Below, one piece after another: positions 3,921 through 63,923 of a DNA stretch of 64,000 nucleotides. The notes under the pieces are model-generated. The model was not told the origin of the DNA, ran no database searches, and saw only the letters and a program-made list of their open reading frames with translations. Numbering within the stretch: the stretch's first letter is position 1; each line of letters begins with the position of its first letter. This DNA is from Kribbella sindirgiensis (GTDB taxonomy: Bacteria; Actinomycetota; Actinomycetes; Propionibacteriales; Kribbellaceae): contig NZ_SJKA01000008.1 in NCBI RefSeq assembly GCF_004331435.1, positions 124,001-188,000 on the forward strand, given 5' to 3'. A program made the translations under genes and the position numbers.

Positions 3921-3980
3921 CTGCAGGCTTCCAGTCCGCTCCGGCTTCCAATCAGCACTACCAGGCGTTAGCATCGTCAT

Positions 3981-4361
3981 ATGGCGATAACAGTGGACCC
4001 GGTCGATGCGACGCTGGAGCACGGTGACGAGTCGGCCGCGCTGAGCGTGGCGGCCTGCCTGTTCCACGGGTTCAGCGACGCGTCCCGGCTAGCGATCGTG
4101 CGGCACCTCGCGCTCGGTGAGCACCGCGTGGTCGATCTGACCGAGCATCTCGGCCTGGCCCAGTCGACGGTGTCCAAGCATCTTGCCTGCTTGCGGGACT
4201 GCGGCCTCGTGGACTCGCGGCCGCAAGGCCGGGCCTCTCTGTTCAGCCTGACCCACCCCGAAGCGACCATGCGGTTGCTGTCGGCGGCCGAGGAACTGCT
4301 CGGTCTGACCGGCGACGCGGTTGCCCTCTGCCCGGTCTACGGCGTGGAGGCACAGGGATGA
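3981..4361 (+). CDS. ArsR/SmtB-family metal sensor, CmtR-like
   Basis: A 126-residue winged-helix repressor. The recognition helix region is AQSTVSKHLACLRDCGLV. Cys70 and Cys74 (CLRDC) plus Cys117 (ALCPVYG) match the spacing of the Cd/Pb ligands in mycobacterial CmtR (Cys57, Cys61, Cys102), so cadmium or lead sensing is likely by family analogy. An imperfect inverted repeat with GTTA...TAAC ends (3967-3991) spans the start codon and may be the self-operator. The gene overlaps the downstream CDF transporter by ATGA, so the two are translationally coupled and the transporter is the probable regulated target. Confidence 0.88.
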   Translation: MAITVDPVDATLEHGDESAALSVAACLFHGFSDASRLAIVRHLALGEHRVVDLTEHLGLAQSTVSKHLACLRDCGLVDSRPQGRASLFSLTHPEATMRLLSAAEELLGLTGDAVALCPVYGVEAQG

Positions 4362-5083
4362 GCGAGCCGCAGCCCCTGCACATATCGCCTACTCCCCCGA
4401 GCACCTGGACCACAGATGCCGAGCAACGCCGCAAGCTGAGCCGTCGCGCTCAACTGCTCGCCGGCGCATCGGTCACCTACAACGTCATCGAAGCCGTCAT
4501 CGCCATCAGCGCCGGCCTGGTCGCGGGATCCGTCGCGCTGGTCGGCTTCGGGCTGGACTCGGTCGTCGAGGTCTCCAGCGGGCTGATCATCTTGTGGCAG
4601 TTCCGTCACCGGCTTCCCGAAACCCGGGAGCGGCAGGCGCTGCGGCTGCTCGCGTTCTCGTTCTTCGGGCTCGCCGCGTACGTCGCCTTCGAGTCGATCC
4701 GGACCCTGATCACCGGCTCCGACCCTGACACGTCGCCGGTCGGTATCGGGCTCGCGATCGCTTCCCTCATCGTCATGCCGTTCCTGTCCTGGGCGCAGCG
4801 CCGTACCGGCAAAGCCCTCGGCTCGAACGCTGTCGTCGCGGACTCGACGCAAACCTTGCTCTGTACGTACCTGTCCGCTGTCCTGCTGATCGGTCTCGTA
4901 CTGAACGCGACCCTCGGCTGGGGCTGGGCCGACCCGATCGCGGGCCTCGTCATCGCCGCGGTCGCCGTACGGGAGGGCATCGAGGCCTGGCGCGGCGAAG
5001 GCTGCTGCTCCCCCATCGCGAGCACAGGCCCTGCGGGCTGCAGCTGCGGCGAAGGCACCTGCAGCGACGGCTGCTGCGACTGA
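4358..5083 (+). CDS. cation diffusion facilitator with Cys-rich tail
   Basis: A 241-residue CDF-type transporter. About five to six membrane helices are visible. The usual HxxxD metal site of TM2 is replaced by GFGLDSVVEVSS, typical of a distinct CDF-like branch, and TM5 carries VADSTQTLLC. The protein lacks the cytoplasmic C-terminal domain of ZitB-type CDFs. It ends in a cysteine-rich tail (CCSPIAS...CSCGEGTCSDGCCD) with eight cysteines, suggesting capture of a soft metal such as Cd, Pb or Zn. The start codon overlaps the stop of the CmtR-like regulator (ATGA). Substrate is inferred from the regulator and the tail. Convergent with the MFS gene at 5091, with 7 bases between them. Confidence 0.85.
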   Translation: MSEPQPLHISPTPPSTWTTDAEQRRKLSRRAQLLAGASVTYNVIEAVIAISAGLVAGSVALVGFGLDSVVEVSSGLIILWQFRHRLPETRERQALRLLAFSFFGLAAYVAFESIRTLITGSDPDTSPVGIGLAIASLIVMPFLSWAQRRTGKALGSNAVVADSTQTLLCTYLSAVLLIGLVLNATLGWGWADPIAGLVIAAVAVREGIEAWRGEGCCSPIASTGPAGCSCGEGTCSDGCCD

Positions 5084-5090
5084 GCCGCGG

Positions 5091-6317
5091 TCATACTGAA
5101 AGACCCTGCTCTGACCGCGCCTCCACAGGCAGCCGCTGGGTGAGGAACAGGAGGAGACCCGCGACCGCGCAGGATGCTGCGACCAGCAGGACCAGGGTTC
5201 GGTACCCGAGCGCGGCGGCGAGCAGCGCCCCGCCCAGCGGTGCGGTGGCCTTCGCGATCAGGATCGGCGCGGCCAGCGTGCCCGCGATCGTGCCGTACCC
5301 GGTCGCGCCGTACCTCTCGAGAAGGATCACGGGAGTCGCGATCGACGCCACCCCGAAACCGAGACCGAACAGCACCAGGCACGCGATCGCTCCGGGCAGG
5401 TCGCGCCCCACGACGGGCAGCAGCGACATCGCCACACCTTGACCGACGAGGACGATTCCGACGATCGTCGCCATGGGCAACCATCTCGTGGACAGGGTGG
5501 TGACGACCCGGCCGGTCACCGACAGCAGCCCGAGCAGGCCGGCAAGGGTCGCGGCAACCACGGCCGGGTGGCCGAGGCTGATCAGGTACTGCACGAGATG
5601 TACGGCGATCACGGCCAGCGCCGCACCGTGCAGGACGAACGTTGCTGCGAGCAACCAGAACGCGGGATCCCGCAGAACCCACGCCGGCGATGCCCGCAAC
5701 CGTCGCTCGTGATGTCCAGCAGCGGAGACGTGCCGCAGCCCGAAGCCGTGCAGCGGGACGGTCAGCGCGAGCGCGATCGCCAGTACGACGAGGGTCTGCC
5801 GCCACTCGATCCGGTCGACCAGCCGACCGGTCAGCGGGATGAAGATCGAGCTCGCGAACCCCGCGACGAGTGTGATCCCCAGCAGCGCCTTCGCCCGCCG
5901 TGCAGGCTCTGTGGCCGCCACGACCACCGCGAACGCCGGCTCGTACAGCACCATCGCCGACGCCACACCGATCAGCGCGAACACGGCGTACAACTGGACG
6001 GCGTTGTGGACGTGCGACCACCCGAGCACGGCCAGCGACCCGATGATCGATCCGGCCGTCATCAGCCCGTGCCCGCCGCGGGCGTCCAGTCGGCGTCCTA
6101 CCGGTATCGACAACAGACCTGCCACCAGGACGGCGATCGTCAGCGCGCCGGCGGCCGTGGTGTGTGAGATTCCCAGGTCGTTGCTCATCGGGCCGAGGAT
6201 CACGCTGAAGGCGTAGTAGAGCACGCCGTACCCGACGGTCTGGGTGACGGCGAGCACTCCGACCAGCCGTCCAGGTCTGACCGCCGCGCTGGTGGTCAGA
6301 CCTGGAGTTGTGGTCAT
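5091..6317 (-). CDS. MFS transporter of the arsenic-type flavoprotein operon
   Basis: A 408-residue major facilitator with about twelve hydrophobic segments; PVGRRLDARGGH lies in the loop after TM2, where MFS proteins carry the motif A loop. The ATG at 6317 is chosen because it overlaps the stop of the upstream flavoprotein gene (TGATG). An in-frame upstream start would lie inside that gene. Both genes are divergent from an arsenic-type ArsR, so the transporter probably exports the product or substrate of the flavoprotein, perhaps an arsenical. It is not ArsB or Acr3, and no arsenate reductase is nearby. Direction and substrate of transport are inference. Confidence 0.85.
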   Translation of the reverse strand: MTTTPGLTTSAAVRPGRLVGVLAVTQTVGYGVLYYAFSVILGPMSNDLGISHTTAAGALTIAVLVAGLLSIPVGRRLDARGGHGLMTAGSIIGSLAVLGWSHVHNAVQLYAVFALIGVASAMVLYEPAFAVVVAATEPARRAKALLGITLVAGFASSIFIPLTGRLVDRIEWRQTLVVLAIALALTVPLHGFGLRHVSAAGHHERRLRASPAWVLRDPAFWLLAATFVLHGAALAVIAVHLVQYLISLGHPAVVAATLAGLLGLLSVTGRVVTTLSTRWLPMATIVGIVLVGQGVAMSLLPVVGRDLPGAIACLVLFGLGFGVASIATPVILLERYGATGYGTIAGTLAAPILIAKATAPLGGALLAAALGYRTLVLLVAASCAVAGLLLFLTQRLPVEARSEQGLSV

Positions 6318-7693
6318 CAGTTGCAGCAGCCGGATTGCTCGGCCTCGACGACTGTGAGCAGGCCACCGCTGATCCCGGTCGCCAGCCCGCGGGTCACCGG
6401 GGCCTCGATGCTGACCGGGGCCGGGCCGCAGCAGCCACCCGCGGCCTCGTCGGCGGAGTCGCCGTACGCCAGGTTCGACGAGCACACACCGGTCTCCGGC
6501 AAGTTCAGCTGGACGTCCCGCGCGGCCTCCCAGTCACCGGCCAGCGCCGCGACGACCGAGCGAGCCTGCTCGTACCCGGTCGCCAGCAGGAACGTCGGCG
6601 CCCGGCCGTACGACTTCGCACCGACCGCGTAGTACCCCGGCTCCGGGTGCGTCAGCTCGTCGACGCCGTGCGGCGGGACGGTACCGCAGGAGTGCTTGTT
6701 CGGGTCGATCAACGGCGCCAGCGCCCGCGTCGAGCCCAGGATCGGGTCCAGGTCGAGCCGCAACTCACCCACCATGGCGTGGTCCGGCCGGAACCCGGTG
6801 GAGTTCACCACCGTGTCCACAACGACCTGCTGGTCGCCTGCCGTCAGCGCCACGCGGCCGTCCGCCGTACGCCCTATCGACTCGGTCCGGAAGCTGCTCA
6901 CCAGCTGCACCCGCCCCGACTGCACCAGCTTCTTCAACCGGGCGCCCAACGCGCCACGCGCAGGCAGTTCGTCGGCCTCGCCGCCGCCGTACGTCCGCGC
7001 CTGGTCCGTGCCACGAACGACCCAAATGACTTCCGTTCCCGGCTCATGCTCGGCCAGCTCACCCAGCTCCAGCAGCGTCGTCGCCGCCGAGTGCCCAGCG
7101 CCCACAACGGCCGTACGCCGACCCGCGAAGCGTTCACGATCGCGCCCGAGGACGTCCGGGAGCGCAGCCGAGATGGCGTCCGCGACCTCGGCCTCGCCGC
7201 GCGCCGGGATGCCCGACGCACCGAGAACGTTCGGCCGCCGCCAGGTACCGGCCGCGTCGATCACCGCCGACGCGATCATCTCCTCCCCGTCCGCCAGCCG
7301 CACCAGGAACGGTGCCGACTCACGGCCCGCCGTACGGATACGGTCGTACCCGACGCGGGTGACTGCGACCACCTCAGCGCCGTACTGGACCTTGTCGCCG
7401 AGCGTCTTCGCCAGCGGGGCCAGGTACTCGTCGATCAGGTCGCCGCCGGTCGGCAACGCGTCCAGGTCGGGCTCGGTCCACTCGCCTTGCTCGAGCAGCC
7501 GGCGCGCGGCGTCGTCGATGTCGTAGCGCCACGGGCTGAACAGCTTGACGTGCCGCCATTCGTCGATCGCCGCAGCCACGCTCGGACCCGACTCCAGAAC
7601 CCGGAACTCGACTCCGCGTTCGGCCAGGTGCGCCGCCGCGGCCAGTCCCACCGGGCCTGCTCCGATGACTACCACCGGCTCTGTCACGATCAT
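6317..7693 (-). CDS. FAD/NAD(P)-binding monooxygenase, ArsO-like
   Basis: A 458-residue flavoprotein with an N-terminal FAD Rossmann motif GAGPVGLAAAAHLAERG and a second nucleotide-binding motif VVGAGHSAATTLLEL near the middle. This two-fold layout is that of flavin-containing monooxygenases. The C-terminus has CysCys pairs (GGCCGPAP and the terminal SGCCN), which could bind As(III) or another thiophilic metal. Family knowledge: a putative flavin-binding monooxygenase named ArsO occurs in Streptomyces ars clusters. The gene lies divergent from an ArsR with CysCys and CVC motifs, with a candidate operator between them, and its stop overlaps the start of an MFS gene. The reaction is not established. 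Confidence 0.85.
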   Translation of the reverse strand: MIVTEPVVVIGAGPVGLAAAAHLAERGVEFRVLESGPSVAAAIDEWRHVKLFSPWRYDIDDAARRLLEQGEWTEPDLDALPTGGDLIDEYLAPLAKTLGDKVQYGAEVVAVTRVGYDRIRTAGRESAPFLVRLADGEEMIASAVIDAAGTWRRPNVLGASGIPARGEAEVADAISAALPDVLGRDRERFAGRRTAVVGAGHSAATTLLELGELAEHEPGTEVIWVVRGTDQARTYGGGEADELPARGALGARLKKLVQSGRVQLVSSFRTESIGRTADGRVALTAGDQQVVVDTVVNSTGFRPDHAMVGELRLDLDPILGSTRALAPLIDPNKHSCGTVPPHGVDELTHPEPGYYAVGAKSYGRAPTFLLATGYEQARSVVAALAGDWEAARDVQLNLPETGVCSSNLAYGDSADEAAGGCCGPAPVSIEAPVTRGLATGISGGLLTVVEAEQSGCCN

Positions 7694-49254: not shown

Positions 49255-49983
49255 CGCGCCCACGCCGCACGCCGTCGTCACGAACGGACAAGCCACCCGG
49301 TCATCCTGCGACAGGCCACCGTTCGAAGAAAAGACAGGGAGCGTCCGCTCACCTGATGCGCATGCCGGAGATGGCTCGGGCGACAACGAGGCGCTGAATT
49401 CGGAGGTGCCTTCGAAGATGGTGTAGATCTATTTCAGCTCGCGGGCAATCTCGGCCAGAAGGACTGAAAGTCGGGCCTGACCTGCGGTTTTGTCTCTCAT
49501 CGGTGATCGGCGGTGATCATCGTTCGCCAGCGTCTCACGGAGCTGTGACGGAGCAAGACCTTGCCCATGGCAACTTGTTGGGATCCAGCGACGGAGCAGA
49601 ACCACCAGACGAACCGGCCCGGATGACCGTTCGAAGCGAGATGTGGTCATGCTGCTGATGTGACCGGCACGGAAGCGACAACGCAGCGTGTAGCCCGCGT
49701 CGGCTAAGCCTCGATCCACCGACTGGATCGTGGTCCAGGCGTCGTCTGCGGTGGCTGGTGGTCCGCTGGGCGCCGGTATGGTCCAGGTCCCAGTCTTTGA
49801 CACGGGTTGTCGAGGGAACAGGACTGACTGATTGACGGGGGACGGGCCGCTTCGATGAGATGGTCCGTAGGTGGCCGCGGAACTGCTGGCGGCGGCAGAC
49901 TTGGAGTTGATCGACACGTCCGCAGCGCAGGACGCACAGGTCGACCGGCGCGGCCGTACGAACATCGGAGGAGGCGACGAGCA
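49255..49983. other. gene-poor stretch
   Basis: No open frame here combines a start, a ribosome site and actinomycete third-position GC bias. A minus-strand frame ending at 49429 has a protein-like tail (QARLSVLLAEIARELK), but the rest is low-complexity and lacks a recognisable domain. The stretch lies between two broken genes and reads as decayed DNA. Confidence 0.5.
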
Positions 49984-52969: not shown

Positions 52970-53977
52970 TTAGTCGCAGTCTCGGCACCTGGACGCAGTT
53001 GCGCTCTCGTAGGCTCTTGGAGGCTGGACGATGAAGCATCCGGTGCATCGGCGCTCGCCGGCGATGGCTTTGCACCCGCACCCACAGGCGCCGCACGTTG
53101 GGCACTTGAGGTCACCGCAGGAATCGCATGCGGCCTGGTATGTGGTGAACGCCGCAGTGCAGTTGTCGCACCAACCATCGTTCGGAGCCGAGTACGCGGT
53201 TCGGCCGGCACTGAACTGCATCCACGGGGCAGGTCCGTCGACCATCACGGCGACCACACAGGTTTGTGCCACGGCGGACTCTATGTTCAGCTCGCGCGTG
53301 GTCGACCCTCCTCCGAGGTCGAGATGAGCAACTCCGCGGACCACCGCACCTGCAGCCGCCCGTTTCAATAAACCCGCCTGTGGTGCCCCACGGCGGGCCG
53401 GGAACACGCCACCGGACCGTGCAGCGAACTCCGCGGCGCCTGCAGGATTGAGGAGCACCACGTATCCGGGTTCGCTCATCGACTCTGCAGCAGCGACCGC
53501 TACCGCCTGAGCCGACGCACTGCATGCCTCCATCAGGTCGACCACGGCGCGGGCAGTGACTCCGTCGGAGAATGCCAATTCACGTGCGGCCTCCGGCACG
53601 AGAACGCGGGACGCGAACGCGTCACAGACCTTCTCCTCCAGTTCTGCGGCGCGTGGATGGGCGAAGAGCTCTTCGAGCACCGCGAAGACCTGGTTGCAGA
53701 GGTGGTGCCCGTACTCGTGGAGAAGGCTGAAGCGACGACGCCCGAACGACGCGTCCTCGGCGACGGCGATGCTGGCCGGAGATGTCGACGAGTCGTATGT
53801 TGCTGCGATCGAGCAAGCCGGTGGCAGACGCTCAGCAGGAACCCACGTGACTTGAATGGACGAGTCTGCCTGAAGCGCCCCTCGCGGCTCACGACTGAGC
53901 TCCTCAAGTTTGACGACTCCAGCGGAGCGAACCTGCTCAAGCAACAGCTCGGCGAGCTGCGCCGCCTGCCGACTCAT
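52970..53977 (-). CDS. ImmA/IrrE-family metallopeptidase with C-terminal zinc ribbons
   Basis: A 335-residue protein. Residues about 1-160 form an ImmA/IrrE-type Gly-zincin domain with LLHEYGHHLCN (HExxH at 87-91) and a downstream acidic helix (AAELEEKVCDAFASRVLVPE) that supplies the third ligand region. The C-terminal about 90 residues contain many cysteines in CxxC pairs (CDNC, CDSCGDLKCPTCGACGCGC, CTGC, CRDC), suggesting two or more zinc ribbons. Family knowledge: such proteases cleave HTH repressors or regulators on stress or phage signals. It lies 37 bases after the anti-sigma-like gene, so that protein is a candidate substrate. Confidence 0.85.
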   Translation of the reverse strand: MSRQAAQLAELLLEQVRSAGVVKLEELSREPRGALQADSSIQVTWVPAERLPPACSIAATYDSSTSPASIAVAEDASFGRRRFSLLHEYGHHLCNQVFAVLEELFAHPRAAELEEKVCDAFASRVLVPEAARELAFSDGVTARAVVDLMEACSASAQAVAVAAAESMSEPGYVVLLNPAGAAEFAARSGGVFPARRGAPQAGLLKRAAAGAVVRGVAHLDLGGGSTTRELNIESAVAQTCVVAVMVDGPAPWMQFSAGRTAYSAPNDGWCDNCTAAFTTYQAACDSCGDLKCPTCGACGCGCKAIAGERRCTGCFIVQPPRAYESATASRCRDCD

Positions 53978-54014: not shown

Positions 54015-55235
54015 CTACTTGCGACGAAGTGCGAAGCGCTCTTCCCACCATCGCCGCCACTCGTCCAAACTCCACTCCTCTTCGGGTTGGACAGAGCGAG
54101 TGACGCCGCTCCGCATCGCGGGCGATGCCTCAAGCATGTGCTCCATGAACGGGACCAGGGCGTCTTCAACCTCGACGTCCAACGCATCAATTTGTTGCTG
54201 CCACTCGAGCCAGTCGTCTCGGTGCGAAGGGCGCGAGAGGACCTCAAGCAACGCCAGGCGCTTCTTCGGCGGATGGGCGGTCTTCACGGGCACTCCGAAA
54301 TACTGCTCCAGAACCGCTCGCTCGTCGCGCGTTGGTTTGGCGCGGCCAGTCTTGAGCGCCTGCAGCCGTACAGCCTCTATGTGCGTAGCGGCCATGACTT
54401 CTCCGAGAGTCCCGCCGGGTCGTTTCAGCAGTTCACTCGCATCGACTGCGTCTGGCGACGATTCTATTTCGCCGTCTCTTCCGACGATCAGTCCAGACTT
54501 GTCGACGACGCCGCGGGTTGCTGACTCGAACCAGCGCATCTGGTCATGAAGCGCATCCAAAGCCTCGAGCCTGTCCCAGTCGTCCGGCTCGAGCCGAGAG
54601 CCCGTCGTTAGCCCGTCCGGGGGCGCTGCCTGCCTAATGCAGGAAGCTTCCAACCGGCGAAGACTCTCGCCCACATCGTCGCTACCAGCCGTGCCGACAT
54701 CGCCGAGGAACCGAGCGAACGTGTACATCGGGACAGTCGCGGCGGCGCGCAGGAAGATGCCTGTCGGGTGGCGCAGCGTGGTGCTGTTCTCATCGGCGAC
54801 GAAGGTGTACTCGTCCGCGAGGGCTACGTCTGTAGTCAGCGGAGCAACGCGGACCCACCAACTGTCGCGTTCGAGAACGACCACAAGTGCGTCCTCGCCT
54901 CGCCAGGACAATCGCCACAGCTGTGCCGGGGCGACGTCGGGCCGCCCAGCCTCATCGGTTCGAAGCAAGGCCTCTAATTCGCTGGGCAGTGACCAAGCGG
55001 CAGCTGCTTCCAGCGCTGCGGACGACACAGGCTGAGCATCCAGCTCCTCGAGCATGGCGCTCAGTTCGTCGCGGTCCTGAGCGGACATCGCTTGCCGGCG
55101 CCGCTGGCACCAGGGACAGCCTGCGAGGTGCTCCTCGGCCGTCTGACTCAGCGCGACCCCTGCGAGCTCGGCGTCGCCAAGGTGCGCCCAAGCGGCTGCG
55201 GTGGGCGAGCCGAGCCGGTTTCGACGCTCATTCAT
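54015..55235 (-). CDS. anti-sigma-like HxxxCxxC protein with HTH segment
   Basis: A 406-residue cytoplasmic protein (no membrane helix). Near the N-terminus AEEHLAGCPWCQRRRQ has the HxxxCxxC signature of zinc anti-sigma (ZAS) domains. Residues about 100-160 form a beta-rich segment (APAQLWRLSWRGEDALVVVL). A later HTH-like stretch (GGTLGEVMAATHIEAVRLQA, KTGRAKPTRDERAVLEQYFG) resembles a Xre-type DNA-binding helix pair, and the C-terminus is a Trp/Glu-rich helix. The arrangement suggests a regulator that sequesters a sigma factor, perhaps the sigma-like protein encoded upstream. Assignment is by motif only. Confidence 0.65.
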   Translation of the reverse strand: MNERRNRLGSPTAAAWAHLGDAELAGVALSQTAEEHLAGCPWCQRRRQAMSAQDRDELSAMLEELDAQPVSSAALEAAAAWSLPSELEALLRTDEAGRPDVAPAQLWRLSWRGEDALVVVLERDSWWVRVAPLTTDVALADEYTFVADENSTTLRHPTGIFLRAAATVPMYTFARFLGDVGTAGSDDVGESLRRLEASCIRQAAPPDGLTTGSRLEPDDWDRLEALDALHDQMRWFESATRGVVDKSGLIVGRDGEIESSPDAVDASELLKRPGGTLGEVMAATHIEAVRLQALKTGRAKPTRDERAVLEQYFGVPVKTAHPPKKRLALLEVLSRPSHRDDWLEWQQQIDALDVEVEDALVPFMEHMLEASPAMRSGVTRSVQPEEEWSLDEWRRWWEERFALRRK

Positions 55236-55710: not shown

Positions 55711-56715
55711 TCAGAGGGCGTCAAGACCAAGCTCCGCTCGGGCAGCGTCACGAACCGCGAACGCGATACGCTCCATCGAAGCCTCGCCCATTCCTGCGAG
55801 CCGATGTGAGAGCTTGTCCCGGACGCGCTGGCTAACGGCCCCTGCAGTCGAGACCGCCAGCCCGGTCTCCTTGGAGATATCGCGGACCTTGAGGTGAAGC
55901 CACGCCAGGACAAGCTTTTCCTTCTCGCTGAACTCCTCGAGTACTGCCCGCGCGATCTCTTCGTCCTCCATAGAGACCCCGACCGCGCCAATCGCTGCCT
56001 CAGGCGAGAACGCGTCCGGAACCGCGTCAATTTCGCCGCGGCCGGCAAGCTCGTCGACATCCTCGACTGGCAGCGCCCCAGGGACATTGTTGGGGTCGAG
56101 GCTCAGGCGAGCGGCGACGACCTCGGCGAGGTCGACGAACGGAAGTGACCCACCGGCAGCCTCGAGCACGGCCTTCGAAAGAGCGACCAGCGAGGGCCTG
56201 TCCGCGACCGGACCTTCTCGAGGCACGTTGGCGCCCCACCGAACGATGGTGACGTCACGCACGGTCCGGGCTGCGGCACGCAGCAGCGCCGGGTCGCCGC
56301 TGTACTGCTCGGTGGGACCGTCGACAAGGGCGGCGTTCCCCTCGCCGGGCACCCCGTCGGCGACGATGACGAAACCATCGTCGTCCTTGAGTAGACCCCG
56401 AAGTCGACGGATCAGTTTCCCGATGACCGTTCGGCGGCCGCTTGCGCGCATGTAGTTGCGGAGGATGACGGTGAGCTTCCGCTCCAGGCCAGCGTTATCG
56501 CTGACCGTTGCGGCCAACTCGACCAGCCTCGGGTAGTTCTCGGCGTGCGTCAGGTACTCGTGTGCCGCCTCATGCGCCGCGTCCGGGCCCCATTTCGCGT
56601 AGCCCTTGGGCGGCGGGAAGCGGTATCTCACACCGACGATGAGGACGCGCCGATACAGCAGCTTGGCGAACTCCTCGCCGAGTTGGCCGGAGCGCAGTTC
56701 CTCAAGCGCGGTCAC
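55711..56715 (-). CDS. sigma-factor-like DNA-binding protein
   Basis: A 334-residue protein from the GTG at 56715, which has GGAGGG six bases upstream. Residues about 45-110 (KWGPDAAHEAAHEYLTHAEN, LERKLTVILRNYMRASGRRT, VIGKLIRRLRGLL) resemble sigma-70 region 2 helices. Residues about 262-306 (FSEKEKLVLAWLHLKVRDIS, KETGLAVSTAGAVSQRVRDK) resemble a region 4 HTH. The linker is long (about 150 residues), unlike compact ECF factors. The open frame extends upstream to 58038 but that part is antisense to the Ubl operon. It overlaps the 122-residue gene by four bases and faces the Ubl operon, which it may transcribe. Confidence 0.7.
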   Translation of the reverse strand: MTALEELRSGQLGEEFAKLLYRRVLIVGVRYRFPPPKGYAKWGPDAAHEAAHEYLTHAENYPRLVELAATVSDNAGLERKLTVILRNYMRASGRRTVIGKLIRRLRGLLKDDDGFVIVADGVPGEGNAALVDGPTEQYSGDPALLRAAARTVRDVTIVRWGANVPREGPVADRPSLVALSKAVLEAAGGSLPFVDLAEVVAARLSLDPNNVPGALPVEDVDELAGRGEIDAVPDAFSPEAAIGAVGVSMEDEEIARAVLEEFSEKEKLVLAWLHLKVRDISKETGLAVSTAGAVSQRVRDKLSHRLAGMGEASMERIAFAVRDAARAELGLDAL

Positions 56716-57080
56716 AGCGGTCCCTCCGTCCCGGTCAGTGCCTGCAGCACCCTCTCCCACGTCTTGGCGTCGATCTTCCCGAGCACGTCTACATCCTCGT
56801 CGGCGAAGTGCACCCACGGCACGTGGTGGCGCTTGAACACACGCCACCACCCTGGCTTGTCTAGCTGGAGCTGCGGCTCCGGCGGGTGAGAGACAGCCCT
56901 CGGGCCGCCCGCTCCGACGTTGCTCGTACGGGTCACCACTTGAGCCATCCGAGTCACCTCGTCGACCGAGACGACCAGAACGGGGTGGTCTCGGTCGTCG
57001 GTCTCGTCGTACAACTCGTGCGGCATCCAGTACGCGGTCTGGATCGCCGGGCGACGCACAGGGACACCTAGTAGCGACAT
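56712..57080 (-). CDS. small protein of unknown function, possible PemK/MazF-like fold
   Basis: A 122-residue protein; the ATG at 57080 follows GAGGAGG. The core (DHPVLVVSVDEVTRMAQVVT and WRVFKRHHVPWVHFADEDVD) has a beta-strand pattern loosely like the SH3-like PemK/MazF barrel, but the family's basic catalytic residues cannot be placed with certainty. Its stop overlaps the start of the sigma-like gene (GTGA), so the two are coupled. A regulatory or adaptor role is equally possible. Confidence 0.6.
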   Translation of the reverse strand: MSLLGVPVRRPAIQTAYWMPHELYDETDDRDHPVLVVSVDEVTRMAQVVTRTSNVGAGGPRAVSHPPEPQLQLDKPGWWRVFKRHHVPWVHFADEDVDVLGKIDAKTWERVLQALTGTEGPL

Positions 57081-57113
57081 CGCTGGCACCTCCTCGGTCG
57101 GCCCAGACACGCG

Positions 57114-57131
57114 GCACGCCTTCAGGCGTGC
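57114..57131. promoter_or_regulatory. palindrome in the divergent control region of the Ubl island
   Basis: GCACGCCT-tc-AGGCGTGC: perfect eight-base arms with a two-base centre, too tight for an RNA hairpin and so probably a protein-binding site. It lies 33 bases upstream of the small gene's start and within the 248-base region that must contain the promoter of the rightward Ubl operon. Confidence 0.5.
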
Positions 57132-57328
57132 GACCGATGTTAGGCCACCGAGCAGACGGGCAGGCGCACCGAACCGCTGTCGAGGCCCCACAAGACTCCC
57201 CGCCGTCCGGGCGTTCCCCAGGCGGGTCATGAAAGTTCGGGCCGGACTTGGACAAGACGGCGCGGTCCGCCATCCCCAGTCGATGTGACGCGCCGAAGAC
57301 GGCGCCCCAACCAGGAAGGACCACCAGC

Positions 57329-57646
57329 GTGAGTACCGAGGCCAAGCCCGACGAGCAGGGCGGCAACAGCGGCCACGACCACGACGTCGTCGTCACGATC
57401 GCCGCCCCCAACAACGCCTCCCGCGCCTTCAAGGTCGACCTCCACGACCGTGTCGACAAGGTTGCGCGCGAGGCCGTGCGCATCTTCGTGCGCGCCCACG
57501 AGATGGAGCAGATGGAGTGCAGCCTCGTCCTCATCGTCGACGGCACCGCGAGCACCCTCGACGACGCCGCCCGTCTCGAGGAAGCCGGCGTGCGCAAGCA
57601 CTCCCGCCTCGCCCTTGTCCCCAAGCAGCCGAAGACTGACGGGTGA
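57329..57646 (+). CDS. ubiquitin-like protein (Ubl) of a bacterial conjugation operon
   Basis: A 105-residue protein starting at GTG after AGGAAGGA. A polar N-terminal tail (1-19) precedes a beta-grasp-like core: VVVTIAAPNNASRAFKVDL (strand-turn-strand), the helix VDKVAREAVRIFVRAHEM, then SLVLIVDGTASTLDD and RLALVPKQ. The layout resembles DUF2604/multi-ubiquitin-type bacterial Ubls. The chain ends PKTDG, so a single terminal Gly is exposed without processing. Its stop overlaps the next gene (GTGA). With E1-like and JAB neighbours, the likely role is to be conjugated to targets or to sulfur. Confidence 0.75.
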   Translation: MSTEAKPDEQGGNSGHDHDVVVTIAAPNNASRAFKVDLHDRVDKVAREAVRIFVRAHEMEQMECSLVLIVDGTASTLDDAARLEEAGVRKHSRLALVPKQPKTDG

Positions 57647-58062
57647 GCCTCCACCCTCGAGTGCTTCGAGACCTCCTCGAGGCCGAAGCGGACGTCGCAC
57701 GGGAGCGCCTCGGCGACCGCGTCACGAACATCAGCGTCGGCGCCAACAACGTCGAGGTTCACTTCATCGCGCACGGTGTCGAGCGCCGGATGCGGTTGAC
57801 CGGCGCCGACTACGACCGACGCCCTCTGTCGCTGTCGTTCGTCGACGAGACGGGCAACCCGCTGCCCGCGGAGGGGTGGCCGCCAATCACCACGGGCGGG
57901 CACCACCCTGTCCTTGGCACGCCGTGGACGTGTCTGCGCGGCACGCTGGAGTACCACCTGTACGCGGGGCACACCGCCGCCGCGGACAGCTGGGACGCCA
58001 GTCGCGCCGATCTCCGCGTGCCTGATGTGATCGAGCACGTCCTCCAGAGGTGCACGGCATGA
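57643..58062 (+). CDS. CEHH-type predicted metal-binding protein of Ubl operons (E2-like candidate)
   Basis: A 139-residue protein overlapping the Ubl stop (GTGA) and the JAB start (ATGA). The conserved-looking core is HHPVLGTPWTCLRGTLEYHL followed by YAGH: Cys97, Glu103, His105 and His110 give the C-E-H-H pattern of the predicted metal-binding domain (Metal_CEHH) described from bacterial Ubl gene neighbourhoods. The upstream PLSLSFVDETGNPLPAEGWP followed by P could be the strand-and-proline segment of an E2 fold, and Cys97 would then be the thioester Cys. Sequence alone does not decide between these. It is the only candidate for an E2 role in the operon. Confidence 0.65.
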   Translation: MSLHPRVLRDLLEAEADVARERLGDRVTNISVGANNVEVHFIAHGVERRMRLTGADYDRRPLSLSFVDETGNPLPAEGWPPITTGGHHPVLGTPWTCLRGTLEYHLYAGHTAAADSWDASRADLRVPDVIEHVLQRCTA

Positions 58063-58559
58063 GCATCACCAAGCCCCGGCCGACGCGCCGGCTTCTGCTG
58101 CTCACCGCCGCTGTCCTCGAGGAGGCGGGCACGTTCTTCGAGGCCTGTGGCGTGCACGGCTGCGAAGGCACCGCCCTCATCGCCGGCACCGTCAGCGAAA
58201 ACAGCACCCTGCGCGGCGACACCCTCGTCATTCCCGACCAGGCCTCGACCGCGGCCCCGCACGTGTCGGTGACGGTCACCCCAACCGGTGACCTGGAGCT
58301 CCTGACCGCACTGCGCCCCGAGCAGCGGTACTTGGCGCGCATCCACAGCCACCCGGGCCTCGCGTTCCACTCCCGCACGGACGACAACAACCCTGCCTTG
58401 ACCCATCAGAGCGCCATCTCCATCGTCGCGCCTTTCTTCGGGCTCGGGCTACGGCACGGGCTCGACGCGGGCGCGGTGTACGTGCGCGAGAAGGGCCGCT
58501 GGCGCGAACTTCCGGCAGGAGGCCCCGAGCGTGAGACGTGGGTGAAGGTCAGTGAGTGA
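58059..58559 (+). CDS. JAB/JAMM-domain deubiquitinase-like peptidase
   Basis: A 166-residue single-domain JAB/MPN protein. Glu36 (GCEGTALIAG) pairs with the zinc site ARIHSHPGLAFHSRTDDN, which supplies His96, His98 and Asp108 with Ser105. Family members cleave isopeptide bonds or trim Ubl C-termini. Because the Ubl already ends in Gly, removal of Ubl from conjugates is more likely than maturation. The ATG at 58059 overlaps the CEHH stop, and the last eight bases overlap the E1-like gene. Confidence 0.88.
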   Translation: MSITKPRPTRRLLLLTAAVLEEAGTFFEACGVHGCEGTALIAGTVSENSTLRGDTLVIPDQASTAAPHVSVTVTPTGDLELLTALRPEQRYLARIHSHPGLAFHSRTDDNNPALTHQSAISIVAPFFGLGLRHGLDAGAVYVREKGRWRELPAGGPERETWVKVSE

Positions 58560-60078
58560 GCGTGACCCCCGCGTCGACCTGAGCGACGAGCTCCTCCCCG
58601 AACACGCTGTCGCTGCGGTGCAGGCGCTCGACCATGTCGGCGTCGTCATCGTCCCCGGCGGCTCGCCCGCGGCAGCCCTGACGGCCGCCGCCGCGCTCGT
58701 ACTCCTCGCACGCACCCACGCGCATGTCGACGTATACGGTGACGCAGCCCTGCCGCACAACCCATGGGGTGTCGTCACCCTCTCCGAGCTCCTCACCAGC
58801 CTCGCCGCAGTCCGGCCGATCGCGCAGGCCGAGCCGGAGTGCACTCTCACCATCAGTACCGGCACCGCCCCAGGCGCCGACCGCTACATCGCTCCGGCCG
58901 CGTGGACCGTCTCTGTCACCGATACCCCGAGCGCGCTCGCAGATAACCCGGCGGACGGCATCGAGATGGCCGTCGCGCCGTACGGCGGCATGTTCGCCGC
59001 CGCCATCGTGGCCGCCGACCTGTTCTGCGACGCGCTCGCACCGCTCGGCCTGCCCGTCGCACCTCGGCGCCCGACGTTCGTTTGGAACCTGCTCGACTAC
59101 ACCTACGAGTCCGCGCCCGCGAGCAAGCTCGGACCGCCGGTCTGGGCGCCAGTGCTATTCGGCGGGTGCGGGTCGGTGGGCTCGAGCGCGGCGGCAGCGC
59201 TCGCATGCGACGACCTGACCGGGATGAACGCCGTCGCGGTCGACGGAGACGACTTCGACCCCGTCCGGAACACGTTCCGCTATCCCGCGGCGACCAACCG
59301 TATGGCTCGAACCGCCAAGGCGAGCTGGGTTAGCGACATCCTCGCGGCCGCCGGCGCCACCACCGACCACCTCGTCGGACCTATCCGCAATTGGACGACG
59401 AGTCAGCCCGCCCCCGGGTTCGACGGCATCGTTGTGTCGTCCGTCGACGATGTCGACGGACGGTACGAGGTCGCAGACCTCCTGGCCCGCACGACACTGT
59501 CCGCGGCCGTGCGCGCCCTGAGCTTCCACATCCAGCGCGAACACCTCGGCGACGGGCTCCGCTGCCCGTTCTGCGACTTCGTCACCGCCGCCTCACCCCT
59601 CGCGCAGGCAGCAGCCGACGCTAAGCTCACTGGTCTCGGCGAGCAGCGGATCGTTGAGCTCCTCCACAACGACACCGGCCTAGAGCAGCAGGACATCAAC
59701 GAGATGCTCAGCGCCGGCAAACTCACTCCCGAGACCGCTCAGGGCCTCCTCGGGGCCCGCCTCGCCGACCTGCGGAACCGGCTCTATGCCCAGGCCGCCA
59801 TTCCCGCAGCCGACCCGAACGCTGCGCCGCCTGCCCCGCTCTCGGCGCCGTTCGTGTCCTGGGCCGTTGGCGTGCTACTCGCGGCCGAGGTCGCCAAATA
59901 CGCCCGCGGCCTCGCCTCGGTGAACCGACGCGTAGAGGTCGACCTGCTGGGCTACCCCGGCGACTTCGTCCACATCCGCCCTGCCGATACCACCGGGCGT
60001 TGTGCATGCGCCCGCGCCATCCGGACCCGCTGGATGCACGCTCTCTATCCAGACGCCTTCACCAGGACCGCGAGCTAG
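58552..60078 (+). CDS. E1-like ThiF/MoeB-family adenylyltransferase
   Basis: A 508-residue protein. Residues about 1-190 form an N-terminal domain with alternating hydrophobic strands (VVIVPGGSPAAALTAAAALV). The adenylation domain starts at about 198: VLFGGCGSVGSSAAAALACD (nucleotide loop 204-211), AVDGDDFDPVRNTFRYP (Asp231, Asp233, Asn240 as in E1/ThiF) and Arg250. A Cys-x2-Cys (CPFC, 338-341) and CAC (484-486) probably bind zinc. The segment between about 345 and 430 may carry the thioester function, but no Cys lies there apart from the zinc-type ones. It would activate the Ubl C-terminus with ATP. Confidence 0.85.
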   Translation: MSERDPRVDLSDELLPEHAVAAVQALDHVGVVIVPGGSPAAALTAAAALVLLARTHAHVDVYGDAALPHNPWGVVTLSELLTSLAAVRPIAQAEPECTLTISTGTAPGADRYIAPAAWTVSVTDTPSALADNPADGIEMAVAPYGGMFAAAIVAADLFCDALAPLGLPVAPRRPTFVWNLLDYTYESAPASKLGPPVWAPVLFGGCGSVGSSAAAALACDDLTGMNAVAVDGDDFDPVRNTFRYPAATNRMARTAKASWVSDILAAAGATTDHLVGPIRNWTTSQPAPGFDGIVVSSVDDVDGRYEVADLLARTTLSAAVRALSFHIQREHLGDGLRCPFCDFVTAASPLAQAAADAKLTGLGEQRIVELLHNDTGLEQQDINEMLSAGKLTPETAQGLLGARLADLRNRLYAQAAIPAADPNAAPPAPLSAPFVSWAVGVLLAAEVAKYARGLASVNRRVEVDLLGYPGDFVHIRPADTTGRCACARAIRTRWMHALYPDAFTRTAS

Positions 60079-60577: not shown

Positions 60578-61708
60578 GTGAGCGTAAAGAAGGCAACAGC
60601 TAGTGCGGACCAAGTTACGCTCGCGGTTGACGAGTTCGTCCAGCTGGCAGCATTGGCGGCCTCCAGCGACAGCCCAGCGGCTCCCATCCTGCTCCGCCGG
60701 CTGGCGCGCCGATACCGCACCGAAAACGGGCGGGCCGCCGAAGAGCTCGTCACCATCCTTCGGGCAGGCCCAGTCCGGGGTGCAGCAGCGTCGACGCCCG
60801 ACCCGGTCGATGTCGACTCCCGTCTCCCGTTGCTTCGCCGCGAAGAGCCGGTCGCGATGCGGGTGAGCCCAATCTACGACGACGCGCTCTCCGCCGCGAT
60901 CCAGCAGATCATTGCCGAGCACCTCCGCAGCGAAGCTCTCTACGCCGTCGGCCTCGCTCCCACGCGCACTGCGCTCTTTGTAGGTCCTCCCGGTGTCGGC
61001 AAGACGCTAGCCGCCCGCTGGATTGCCCAACTTCTCGACCTTCCGCTGCTGACACTGGACCTGTCCTCGGTGATGAGCAGCTTCCTCGGGCGCACTGGCA
61101 GCAACATTCGTCGCGTGCTCGACCACGCGCGAGCCAACCATTGCGTCCTGCTGCTCGACGAACTCGACGCCATCGCGAAGCGGCGCGACGACGCCACCGA
61201 GATCGGCGAGCTCAAACGCCTCGTCACCGTACTTCTCCAGGAGATCGACCGCTGGCCCGAAGGTTCGCTGCTCATCGCGGCCACCAACCACGGCGACCTC
61301 CTCGATCCGGCGGTGTGGCGCAGGTTCGAGGCTGTGCTTGAATTCCCGCTGCCGACCGCCGCCGCGCGGGCCGAGGCCGTTCGTCAACTGCTAGCCGACG
61401 AGTGCGTCGATCCTGTGGTGACCGAAATGGTGGTCGCAGCCTCCGATGGCAGCTCGCTCAGCGCGCTCGAGGGCGACGTGCTGGCCGCGCGTCGCCTTGC
61501 CGCCATTGGTGACCTGGCCCTCGATGAGTCGCTACTGGAGATCCAGAGGGGCCACATCGAACGACTCTCCCAACCAGAGCGCATTAAGCTCGCGACCCGT
61601 GTGCTGAGTCAAACCAGCATGAGCCAGCGTCAGGTGTCGCGGCTGACCGGCGTCAGCCGCGACACCCTGCGCAAGCGCGCGGACGATGGAGGCACCGATG
61701 CCCAGTGA
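60578..61708 (+). CDS. AAA ATPase of an IetAS-like pair
   Basis: A 376-residue AAA protein (GTG 60578; GTG 60569 is possible). An N-terminal helical domain (1-95) precedes Walker A GPPGVGKT (136-143), Walker B LLLDELDAIA (191-200), a sensor-1 region LIAATNHGDLLDPAVWRRFE with an arginine-finger-like RRF, and a lid. The C-terminal 30 residues form an HTH (MSQRQVSRLTGVSRDTLRKR). It overlaps the S8 peptidase gene by 11 bases. AAA plus subtilase pairs are known as IetA-IetS, first described as a plasmid toxin-antitoxin pair and later as phage defence. The ATPase would unfold or gate substrates for the protease. Confidence 0.82.
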   Translation: MSVKKATASADQVTLAVDEFVQLAALAASSDSPAAPILLRRLARRYRTENGRAAEELVTILRAGPVRGAAASTPDPVDVDSRLPLLRREEPVAMRVSPIYDDALSAAIQQIIAEHLRSEALYAVGLAPTRTALFVGPPGVGKTLAARWIAQLLDLPLLTLDLSSVMSSFLGRTGSNIRRVLDHARANHCVLLLDELDAIAKRRDDATEIGELKRLVTVLLQEIDRWPEGSLLIAATNHGDLLDPAVWRRFEAVLEFPLPTAAARAEAVRQLLADECVDPVVTEMVVAASDGSSLSALEGDVLAARRLAAIGDLALDESLLEIQRGHIERLSQPERIKLATRVLSQTSMSQRQVSRLTGVSRDTLRKRADDGGTDAQ

Positions 61709-63923
61709 GCCTCGATACTTCCTCGGCTACGGCGAGCGACTGACCGGCCGCGTCCCGCCCCCGCCCGGCGGGCGGGGGACCGAGCCGCCGTACACGCTCG
61801 AGGAGGCTGTCGAGCGGCTCGCACCCCGGCTCGGCGAGACCGTGGACCGCCTGGACGAACTACCGGCAGCAGCATGCCCGCGCGAACAGGTAGTTGCAGT
61901 GATGACCATGCACCCTCAGGCGGTGGCGAAGTCGTACTTCCCCGCCCAACTGCTGAACCAATACGGACTGTGGCACGTCGGCAGCCGGCCCGTTCTGGTC
62001 ACGCCGGAGCAGTGGACTCGCCAGGACGAAGTCGCCGCCACACCATCGACGGACCTGTTCATCGCCGGACGGCGCGAGTCATTCAACGCGTTCGCCCAGG
62101 CGCTACACACCTTGGACACCGCGGTGCCCGAGGGCCTGCGCCGGATCGAGGACATCCATCCATTCACTGTCGCTGAGCGAGTTCGCGGCCTCGATGCGCG
62201 CGACAGCATAGCCAGGACGGCCTACCTTGAGGTCGTCCTGCACGCCGCTGACACCGGCGATGACGGATATATCGTGGAAGCGTTCGCCGAGTACGCTGAC
62301 CAGCTCGGAGTCGACGCCCGCCTCGGCATGCGCCTCTACGCCGGCGGACTGTGCTTCATCCCCGTCGTCGCATCAGTGGATCAGATCGACGGACTGAGCC
62401 AGTTCTCCTTCCTGCGCGTCGCACGACCGGTCAGTCGCATGCGCGACATCGCGACGCCCATCGAACGCTCTGTGCCCTCTCCTGACCTTCCCGACGTCAC
62501 TTTGCCCACGGAAGGACCCCTCGACCCGGATTTTCGGGTTGCCGTGTTCGATGGAGGCCTCGCTGACGGGTCGCCCCTCGCGCCGTGGGCGGTTGGTCAC
62601 GACACCGATGGGGTCGGCAAACCAGTCGACACCTTCCTCGGACACGGCCACGAGGTCACCTCTGCCCTCCTGTTCGGCTCGCTCGCACCCGGAGCGGAGG
62701 TCACCCGGCCCTACTGCACCGTTGACCACTTCCGTGTCCTTGACGACAGCACCGAAGCGGACCCATTCGAGTTGTACGACGTACTGGGTCGCATCCAGAA
62801 GGTCTTGAGTGACCGCCGCTACGAGTTCTTCAACCTCAGTCTCGGGCCGCATGTCCCGACCGAGAACGACGAGGTCCATCCCTGGACCGCTGTGCTCGAC
62901 GAACACCTCGCCGACGGTCACGCATTTGCCAGCATCGCCGTCGGCAACTCCGGAGCGACATCCGAGCCGCGCATTCAGGTTCCTAGCGACTGCGTGAACG
63001 GCGTCTCCGTTGGAGCCGCCGACAGCACGGGCGCCGGGTGGACGCGCGCGCCCTACAGCGGCATCGGTCCCGGACGCAGCCCTGGAGTCGTGAAGCCAGA
63101 TCTCCTGAACTTCGGCGGATCCGCAACACAACCGTTCCTTGTGATCGACCGCGATTCCGCGCCGTCACTCTCGCGTACCAGCGGGACCTCCCTTGCGGCG
63201 CCGAGCCTGCTGCGCCAGGCCGTAGGGCTGCGCGCGCACTTCGGAAGCCGGTTGAGCCCGCTGGCGCTGAAGGCCTTGCTTATCCACGCTGCCGATCCGC
63301 AAGAGCTCCTCCGACACGAGGTCGGCTGGGGTAAGACACCTTCCGACCTCGACGAGATCGCCGTGTGCAGCGACGGCATGGTCCGCGTCATCTACCAGGG
63401 CGAGTTGAGCCCCAGACAATTTCTGCGAGCCGTCATTCCCACACCTGCCGCCACGATGGCTGGCTTTGTCACCCTGCGGGCGACCTTCTGCTACGCGACG
63501 CCAGTGGACCCGCAAGACCCCGGGAACTACACACGCGCCGGGCTCGAGGTCACCTTCCGCCCACACGCGGAGAGGTTCAAGAAGGACGACGCTGTCGACC
63601 CGGCCCCCCATACCTTCTTCAAACGCACGGAATTCGATCCAGAGCATGACCTCCGCAAGGATGCACAGAAGTGGGAAACCATCCTGCATCATGAGCAGCG
63701 GTTTCGCGGAACAAGCCTCATGCGACCCGTGTTCGACATCCACTACAACGCCCGTGAGGGCGGTGGTGAAGCTAGGCACGCGCCGCGCATGAGATACGCC
63801 CTGGTCGTCGACGTGCTCTCACCACGGACACCCGACCTGTACGACCGAGTCAGCGCCCTCTACGCCGGCCAGCTAGAGGCACTGGTGCCCCTCGTCGACA
63901 TCCCGGTCCAGGTACAGACGTAG
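61698..63923 (+). CDS. S8 subtilisin-like peptidase of an IetAS-like pair
   Basis: A 741-residue cytoplasmic subtilase (no signal peptide). The ATG at 61698 has GGAGG six bases upstream and is preferred over 61686. Residues about 1-270 are an N-terminal domain of unknown fold. The catalytic domain follows: Asp in VAVFDGGLADGS (about 285), His in FLGHGHEVTSALL (about 316), oxyanion Asn in SIAVGNSG and Ser in LSRTSGTSLAAPSLLRQ (about 490). A C-terminal beta domain of about 180 residues ends at the stop. It is coupled to the AAA gene, matching IetS. The last 77 bases of the window show no gene. Confidence 0.85.
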   Translation: MPSEPRYFLGYGERLTGRVPPPPGGRGTEPPYTLEEAVERLAPRLGETVDRLDELPAAACPREQVVAVMTMHPQAVAKSYFPAQLLNQYGLWHVGSRPVLVTPEQWTRQDEVAATPSTDLFIAGRRESFNAFAQALHTLDTAVPEGLRRIEDIHPFTVAERVRGLDARDSIARTAYLEVVLHAADTGDDGYIVEAFAEYADQLGVDARLGMRLYAGGLCFIPVVASVDQIDGLSQFSFLRVARPVSRMRDIATPIERSVPSPDLPDVTLPTEGPLDPDFRVAVFDGGLADGSPLAPWAVGHDTDGVGKPVDTFLGHGHEVTSALLFGSLAPGAEVTRPYCTVDHFRVLDDSTEADPFELYDVLGRIQKVLSDRRYEFFNLSLGPHVPTENDEVHPWTAVLDEHLADGHAFASIAVGNSGATSEPRIQVPSDCVNGVSVGAADSTGAGWTRAPYSGIGPGRSPGVVKPDLLNFGGSATQPFLVIDRDSAPSLSRTSGTSLAAPSLLRQAVGLRAHFGSRLSPLALKALLIHAADPQELLRHEVGWGKTPSDLDEIAVCSDGMVRVIYQGELSPRQFLRAVIPTPAATMAGFVTLRATFCYATPVDPQDPGNYTRAGLEVTFRPHAERFKKDDAVDPAPHTFFKRTEFDPEHDLRKDAQKWETILHHEQRFRGTSLMRPVFDIHYNAREGGGEARHAPRMRYALVVDVLSPRTPDLYDRVSALYAGQLEALVPLVDIPVQVQT

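Follow-up and report, generated by a model that had tools for sequence, protein, structure and literature searches.

The thioester formed on an E1 enzyme is generally taken to be a step that comes before the charging of an E2, and a four-gene operon in Kribbella sindirgiensis raises the question of whether this step can be skipped. The operon lies in a window of 64,000 nt (NZ_SJKA01000008.1, positions 124,001-188,000; coordinates below are positions in this window) and had been described in an earlier note on this DNA as encoding a ubiquitin-like protein (Ubl), a CEHH protein, a JAB peptidase and a ThiF/E1-like enzyme. It is probably a complete module for Ubl conjugation and deconjugation, a divergent relative of BilABCD that probably serves anti-phage defence, and we regard it as highly likely to be a Bil-like module with the CEHH protein as its E2 and with an E1 that lacks the equivalent of Cys417 of BilD. 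The genes of the operon are:

57329..57646, + strand: Ubl, a BilA-like single-domain protein (GTG start, 105 aa)
57643..58062, + strand: CEHH protein, a BilB-like putative E2 (139 aa)
58059..58559, + strand: BilC-like JAMM isopeptidase (ATG start; alternative upstream GTG start at 58050)
58552..60078, + strand: BilD-like E1 (508 aa)

The coordinates and overlaps given earlier were recovered from the open reading frames: all four frames are open, and neighboring genes share 4, 4, and 8 bases (Ubl/CEHH, CEHH/JAB, and JAB/E1, respectively). The same genes occur in the same order in two other actinobacteria, Allobranchiibius sp. CTAmp26 (L012) and the actinomycete metagenome-assembled genome CAN_BIN24 (G138; L011 and L013, on the same contig), which together with profile matches to BilD and BilC takes the operon beyond chance. 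Gene order and homology to Bil proteins also bear out the earlier view of a set for Ubl activation and deconjugation. The reference for these comparisons is BilABCD, the bacterial ISG15-like system of the pNGR234a type (PDB 8tyx, 8tyy, 8tyz, and 8tz0); proteins of pNGR234a match chains named BilA, BilB, and BilD in the PDB, and BilC belongs to the same set (8tyx_B). Set against this reference, the part that appears irregular is the E1 and not the E2, the catalytic Cys417 of BilD being absent from its sequence, a point that the earlier note had overlooked.

The E1 and its thioester cysteine

A profile built from the aligned E1s retrieved BilD from the PDB (8tyz_A, 8.2e-15; profile 38-525 of 557), and hhalign paired the E1 with NGR234 BilD (98.7%, E 3.4e-16) over a span of 41-529 of 561. 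By these alignments the window E1 appears homologous to BilD over its length, including the inactive and active adenylation halves. The GGCGSVGS and DxD motifs reported earlier are in place, the former from residue 204 and the latter as D231-G-D233. Among 16 aligned E1s, D231, N240, R243, and G207 are present in every sequence and G205, G210, and D299 in 15 each, and all seven residues are present in the E1s of the window, L012, and L011.

A review (PMC11354881) describes the BilD thioester as formed via Cys417, and residue 417 of the BilD PDB sequence is a cysteine. In an alignment of 14 E1s this column holds Cys in 10, Tyr in three (window, L012, and L011), and a gap in one, L020 from a plasmid of Rhizobium beringeri. 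The two classical actinobacterial E1s, L048 and L050, added in the alignment of 16, have Cys in this column, so that all 12 classical Bil-type E1s in the comparison, including two from actinobacteria, retain the equivalent of Cys417; loss of the cysteine as a phylum-wide trait is thereby ruled out. One further sequence, L049 (ThiF 6.6e-9, JAB neighbor), comes from a contig of 3 kb; a single Cys falls near this column in an alignment rich in gaps, and the sequence was counted neither way. Between C341 and C484 the window E1 has not a single cysteine, nor do the E1s of L012 and L011 between the matching pairs. In the E1 tree, calculated without L024 (a near-copy of L022), these three Cys-less E1s form one clade with support of 100/100.

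The window E1 holds eight cysteines in total, and one of the others (C338/C341, C484/C486, or the lineage-specific C97 or C159) might take the place of Cys417 in a conventional relay. We regard this as rather unlikely: C338, C341, C484, and C486 are conserved in 16 of 16 aligned E1s, and because these include the bearers of Cys417 the four are presumed to be a zinc site, as would fit structural zinc ligands; they are also the only cysteines invariant among the three Cys-less E1s.

The E2, the peptidase, and the Ubl

The earlier note saw no standard candidate for the E2, a view that is outdated, as CEHH proteins are BilB, the E2, both in PMC11354881 and in PDB 8tyz/8tz0; in 8tyz the name E2 (BilB) is given to the chain of a CEHH protein that is separate from the E1. 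The same review assigns catalytic roles to Cys138 and His151 of BilB and structural roles to Glu144 and His146, and the corresponding residues of the window protein, correctly listed before as C97, E103, H105, and H110, have the same spacing. In an alignment of 12 CEHH proteins, every sequence has the Cys and the last His, whereas the Glu is kept in nine and the first His in 10; in L011 and L012 exactly the two structural residues, E and the first H, are gone, and the catalytic pair is kept.

An AlphaFold model of the window CEHH protein reached a predicted local distance difference test score (pLDDT) of 72.7 from an alignment of three sequences, with low confidence at 88-91 and 109-122, the latter stretch, which holds H110, scoring below 50. 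Comparison of such a model with E2 folds, which had been proposed as a check, returned an E2 fold: BilB is the top match in Foldseek (E 3.7e-3) and in VIA (Z 10.1, 3.3 A, 122 residues), and the 48 VIA rows beneath the two BilB entries are all titled as E2s, E2 variants, or E2 complexes (Z 6.3-7.7), with the exceptions of 7kzp and 4nf9. The window-type and classical CEHH sets also align with each other in hhalign (98.8%, E 6e-17). Modeled fold, motif, and homology thus all point to the CEHH protein as the E2 of the operon. The BilB-like fold and the kept Cys/His pair fill the E2 gap left in the earlier note; of the two options offered there, that of Cys97 as an E2 gains from the fold, and that of a system working without an E2 loses ground.

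The peptidase is BilC-like by its complete motif and its homology. Its JAMM residues E36, H96, H98, S105, and D108, as reported before, are correct in the numbering from the ATG and are kept in L011 and L012; PADLOC identified it as BilC (3.3e-7), an aligned-JAB profile retrieved BilC from the PDB (8tyx_B, 6.3e-12), and the Pfam match of the single sequence to Prok-JAB (9.8e-5) falls under the cut-off.

The Ubl ends in Gly, as had been stated, and its terminus (...KTDG) is an Asp-Gly end with no extension to remove; the homologue in L012 reads ...KPQVDG followed by AGITLIK, that is, seven residues past the Asp-Gly. For the beta-grasp fold also proposed, the evidence is a sequence profile of these two proteins, which gives weak matches to many ubiquitins (best single-stretch E 2e-4; the best E in the table, 1e-6, is a sum over polyubiquitin repeats and not a single stretch).

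A proposed route from the adenylate to the target

The residues kept in the alignment suggest that the E1 would adenylate the C-terminal Gly of the Ubl. It should form no usual E1-thioester, because the cysteine that forms the thioester in BilD is absent. Cys97 of the E2, together with H110, would then accept the Ubl directly from the adenylate bound to the E1 before handing it to targets; we consider this direct transfer the most likely route, though with somewhat less than even confidence. BilC would remove the Ubl from its targets, and the L012 peptidase would also trim a Ubl precursor, a step for which the window Ubl, already encoded with its final Gly, would have no need. More generally, we propose, tentatively, a pathway with a single thioester, in which an adenylation-only E1 loads the E2 cysteine from the adenylate and the E1 thioester of known relays is bypassed. 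If true, such a pathway would be intermediate in logic between MoeB/ThiF-like adenylating enzymes and a full E1-E2 cascade, or a reversion to such a state, and it would have been retained in a clade of actinobacterial operons.

A number of observations weigh against this reading of the operon. The anti-phage role is drawn from relatives and neighbors. The earlier assignment of the E1 to ThiF/E1 holds by alignment profile and fails by single sequence: the Pfam scan of the window E1 gave no ThiF match, a whole-genome ThiF search did not list its gene, and PADLOC returned no BilD match for it, only E1-E2 at 0.091, whereas NGR234 BilD, as a control, matches the PADLOC BilD model at 1e-15. A match of the E1 to the other classical E1 set in hhalign is weak (35%). 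The Cys417 site is placed by alignment, the E1 structure model having a pLDDT of 32.8, and the residue opposite Cys417 is Tyr412 or Ala413 depending on the aligner; this last ambiguity is immaterial, as there is no cysteine anywhere between residues 341 and 484. K256 is conserved in other alignments; in that of 16 E1s, which is shifted there by one residue, L011 and L012 have Ser instead. Given the close kinship of L011 and L012, the loss of the cysteine is observed in two lineages rather than three. For the E2, no Foldseek match of the model reaches 0.001, unrelated folds stand among the lower rows, and a sequence profile finds BilB in the PDB weakly (0.018), mostly around the active site. 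Finally, hhalign detected no similarity between the window Ubl and NGR234 BilA.

Three other explanations have to be weighed. MccB carries out direct amide formation and MoeB/ThiF serve sulfur transfer, and adenylation in this operon might likewise have a purpose other than conjugation, with the E2-fold protein as a co-factor. The Cys-less E1 does resemble adenylating enzymes of the MoeB/MccB kind in this respect, and the CEHH proteins of L011 and L012 are without two of the four CEHH residues, yet we find this reading doubtful, given that the E2 Cys and last His are invariant among the aligned CEHH proteins and that the peptidase with its full JAMM motif has been retained, as would be expected if there were Ubl-protein bonds to cleave. 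Decay of a Bil system, with a pseudo-enzyme in place of its E1, would account for the few, scattered members, the lost Cys, and the uncertain K256 of L011 and L012; it is nonetheless quite improbable, as none of the four tightly overlapping frames is interrupted, all three operons retain the JAMM motif, the catalytic pair of the E2, and almost every adenylation residue, and homologues at 35-37% identity have the same cysteine loss, which has therefore persisted. Least probable is a metal-binding accessory role for the CEHH protein in an E2-free system, which is suggested by the name of the Pfam family weakly matched by the single sequence (Metal_CEHH, 0.021) and by the predicted metal-binding protein of NGR234-type class 6c in PMC1779556. 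Against it stand the modeled E2 fold, for which BilB is the best match, the catalytic and structural roles of the four residues in BilB (PMC11354881), and the loss in L011 and L012 of exactly the structural ones.

Direct loading of the E2 remains our preferred reading, and the combination of an intact E2 site with a Cys-less E1 offers a natural system for asking whether the E1-thioester step can be skipped, a question that bears on the origin of E1-E2 cascades from simple adenylating enzymes. With this operon the range of Bil-like systems grows by a clade in which the PADLOC 2023 models detect BilC alone.

Relatives, genomic setting, and known systems

The Cys-less clade is rare. A scan of genome contigs with the JAB alignment yielded two loci, L012 and L013 (two of 170 pattern matches were confirmed). 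L012 encodes a complete set of Ubl, CEHH, JAB, and E1 in the order of the window; L011/L013 has the same order from the CEHH gene on, the contig end cutting inside that gene. Searches with the window E1 matched four of 394 genomes of the class, at full length only its own and G138, and two of 97 close relatives, at full length only its own; an E1 profile of three rows matched three of 396 genomes of the phylum (again only its own at full length) and one of 38 of the genus. It should be noted that the family and order of G138 are represented by only four genomes in the collection searched. Nothing was found with the window E1 in genome contigs, viral contigs, or plasmids, or with the L012 E1 in plasmids; neither the JAB and E1 alignments nor the classical Bil alignments matched viral contigs, and the window JAB protein had no match in phages. 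Metal_CEHH gave no match among 394 genomes of the class, a search in which the controls did not register either.

Classical relatives were found on plasmids and within the phylum. With the CEHH and JAB proteins, tblastn against plasmids led to Rhizobium, Sinorhizobium, Mesorhizobium, and Bradyrhizobium plasmids. Of the plasmid records, 10 of 17 with a JAB match and five of six with an E1 match were fetched. Under varied annotated names, nine of the 11 plasmid loci fetched carry Ubl, CEHH, JAB, and E1 in this order. The exceptions are L019, where an insertion sequence upstream interrupts the operon and there is no annotated CEHH gene, the E1 keeping its Cys, and L020 (3714-6203), where multiubiquitin, JAB, and E1-like genes have no CEHH gene between them and the E1-like protein is weakly ThiF (0.0014, under the cut-off) and without the cysteine-bearing stretch. 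L020 would serve as a natural point of contrast for an E2-free system. On a Rhizobium sophoriradicis plasmid (L021, 3507-8537) a Bil-type operon is followed by TIR-domain and caspase-family genes. A classical E1 profile matched 11 genomes of the phylum, of which the three best (G640, G501, and G675) were examined, the other eight matches being short; classical Bil-type operons in the order Ubl-CEHH-JAB-E1 were found in L048 (G640, 3620-6530) and L050 (G501, 4693-7667). The actinobacterial setting, which the earlier note had found worth remark, is therefore shared by Cys-bearing operons of the classical type.

The operon is carried on an integrative element of 24.4 kb bounded by an exact 32-bp direct repeat, at 49399-49430 in the window and at 197772-197803 of the contig (C53), the right attachment-site copy lying outside the window. 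A tyrosine integrase (PF00589, 1.5e-14) is encoded just within the right copy, and this copy is itself part of the 3' end of a gene for an acyl-CoA dehydrogenase (PF00441, 2.5e-50). In at least eight of 37 other genomes of the genus, the matches to the dehydrogenase gene and to the left flank are separated by 35 bases. Of these eight, the four that were read each have a single repeat at the junction, with 0, 1, 2, and 5 mismatches, compared with 13 mismatches at the best place elsewhere in an 18-kb control; the uninterrupted junction in these four relatives is an empty site. A second repeat of 22 bp near the element ends (window 49533, contig 197606) is perhaps an arm site of the integrase.

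The neighbors of the operon are:

56712..57230, - strand: small PemK/MazF-like protein, encoded divergently to the operon (PF02452, E 0.066, under cut-off)
55711..56715, - strand: 334-aa protein with a C-terminal stretch like a helix-turn-helix (HTH) or sigma region 4, by eye only (no Pfam match)
54015..55235, - strand: 406-aa protein, a possible regulator from its position (Pfam matches all under cut-off)
52970..53977, - strand: ImmA/IrrE-type (CapP-like) protease (PF06114, 3.3e-8; PADLOC capP, 3e-15)
60578..61708 (start approximate), + strand: IetA-like AAA ATPase (PADLOC IetA, 8.2e-79)
61686..63923, + strand: IetS-like S8 protease (PADLOC IetS, 6.4e-39)

The start of the PemK/MazF-like gene may be further in, near 57059, and the divergent promoter region has inverted repeats, though only short or imperfect ones. 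The CapP-like protease has a cysteine-rich, zinc-ribbon-like tail and a homologue downstream of the E1 in both L011 and L012 (blastp to the L011 protease, 1.5e-11). In these two loci (L012, 12141-14414; L011, 6040-8316) an extracytoplasmic function (ECF)-like sigma factor, an HTH protein, and an ImmA/IrrE protease are appended to the operon, possibly as a protease-controlled sigma switch for a defense operon. The idea that the whole upstream set of the window is homologous to these genes was rejected, since the protease alone matches: hhalign paired neither the 334-aa protein with the ECF-like sigma factor nor the 406-aa protein with the HTH protein, and the window neighbors of the protease have no Pfam HTH match and no match to the L011/L012 HTH protein. 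CapP proteases are described in PMC13373217 as activated by single-stranded DNA and cleaving the CapH repressor; with a CapP-like protease beside the operon, this biology makes damage-triggered expression plausible.

The IetAS-like pair, carried on the same 24.4-kb element, shares with IetAS the order of an AAA ATPase followed by an S8 protease, but its scores are under the NCBIfam equivalog cut-offs (IetA 236.9 bits against 510, IetS 104.6 bits against 900), which would make it a divergent member at most. Bub operons are likewise ubiquitination-like, and CapW or CapH+CapP regulators stand beside 219 of 544 of them (PMC13373217). In the 2006 survey of prokaryotic ubiquitin-like systems (PMC1779556), class 6c is the NGR234 type, with an E1-like protein, a JAB protein, and a predicted metal-binding protein, and an E2-like domain is put at the N-terminus of the E1, whereas in 8tyz the E2 is the separate CEHH protein. 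A Cys-less BilD was not found in the open-access literature searched, among which the primary Bil and Bub papers did not turn up, so that a prior report is possible. The classical operons of Actinomycetota (L048 and L050) share the phylum and the gene order of the window operon, but the cysteine is present in their E1s (...GVCGG...), which cluster with those of the NGR234 type, apart from the window E1.

With BilABCD itself the window operon has in common the gene order A-B-C-D, the E2 fold, the CEHH spacing, the JAMM peptidase, the homology of the E1, and a single-domain Ubl (105 aa, compared with about 98 aa in NGR234 BilA, which is also single-domain; the two-domain BilA described in PMC11354881 is not matched). 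It differs in an E1 without Cys417, which the PADLOC BilD model misses, and in a Ubl not detectably similar in sequence, with a DG end and no extension. PADLOC finds BilC in NGR234 (3.6e-15) and gives no match for NGR234 BilA and BilB, so that the lack of such matches in the window is not a difference specific to it. In its anatomy the operon works like a Bil system, but, as the thioester cysteine of the E1 was looked for and is missing, we do not count it as a member of BilABCD in the strict sense.

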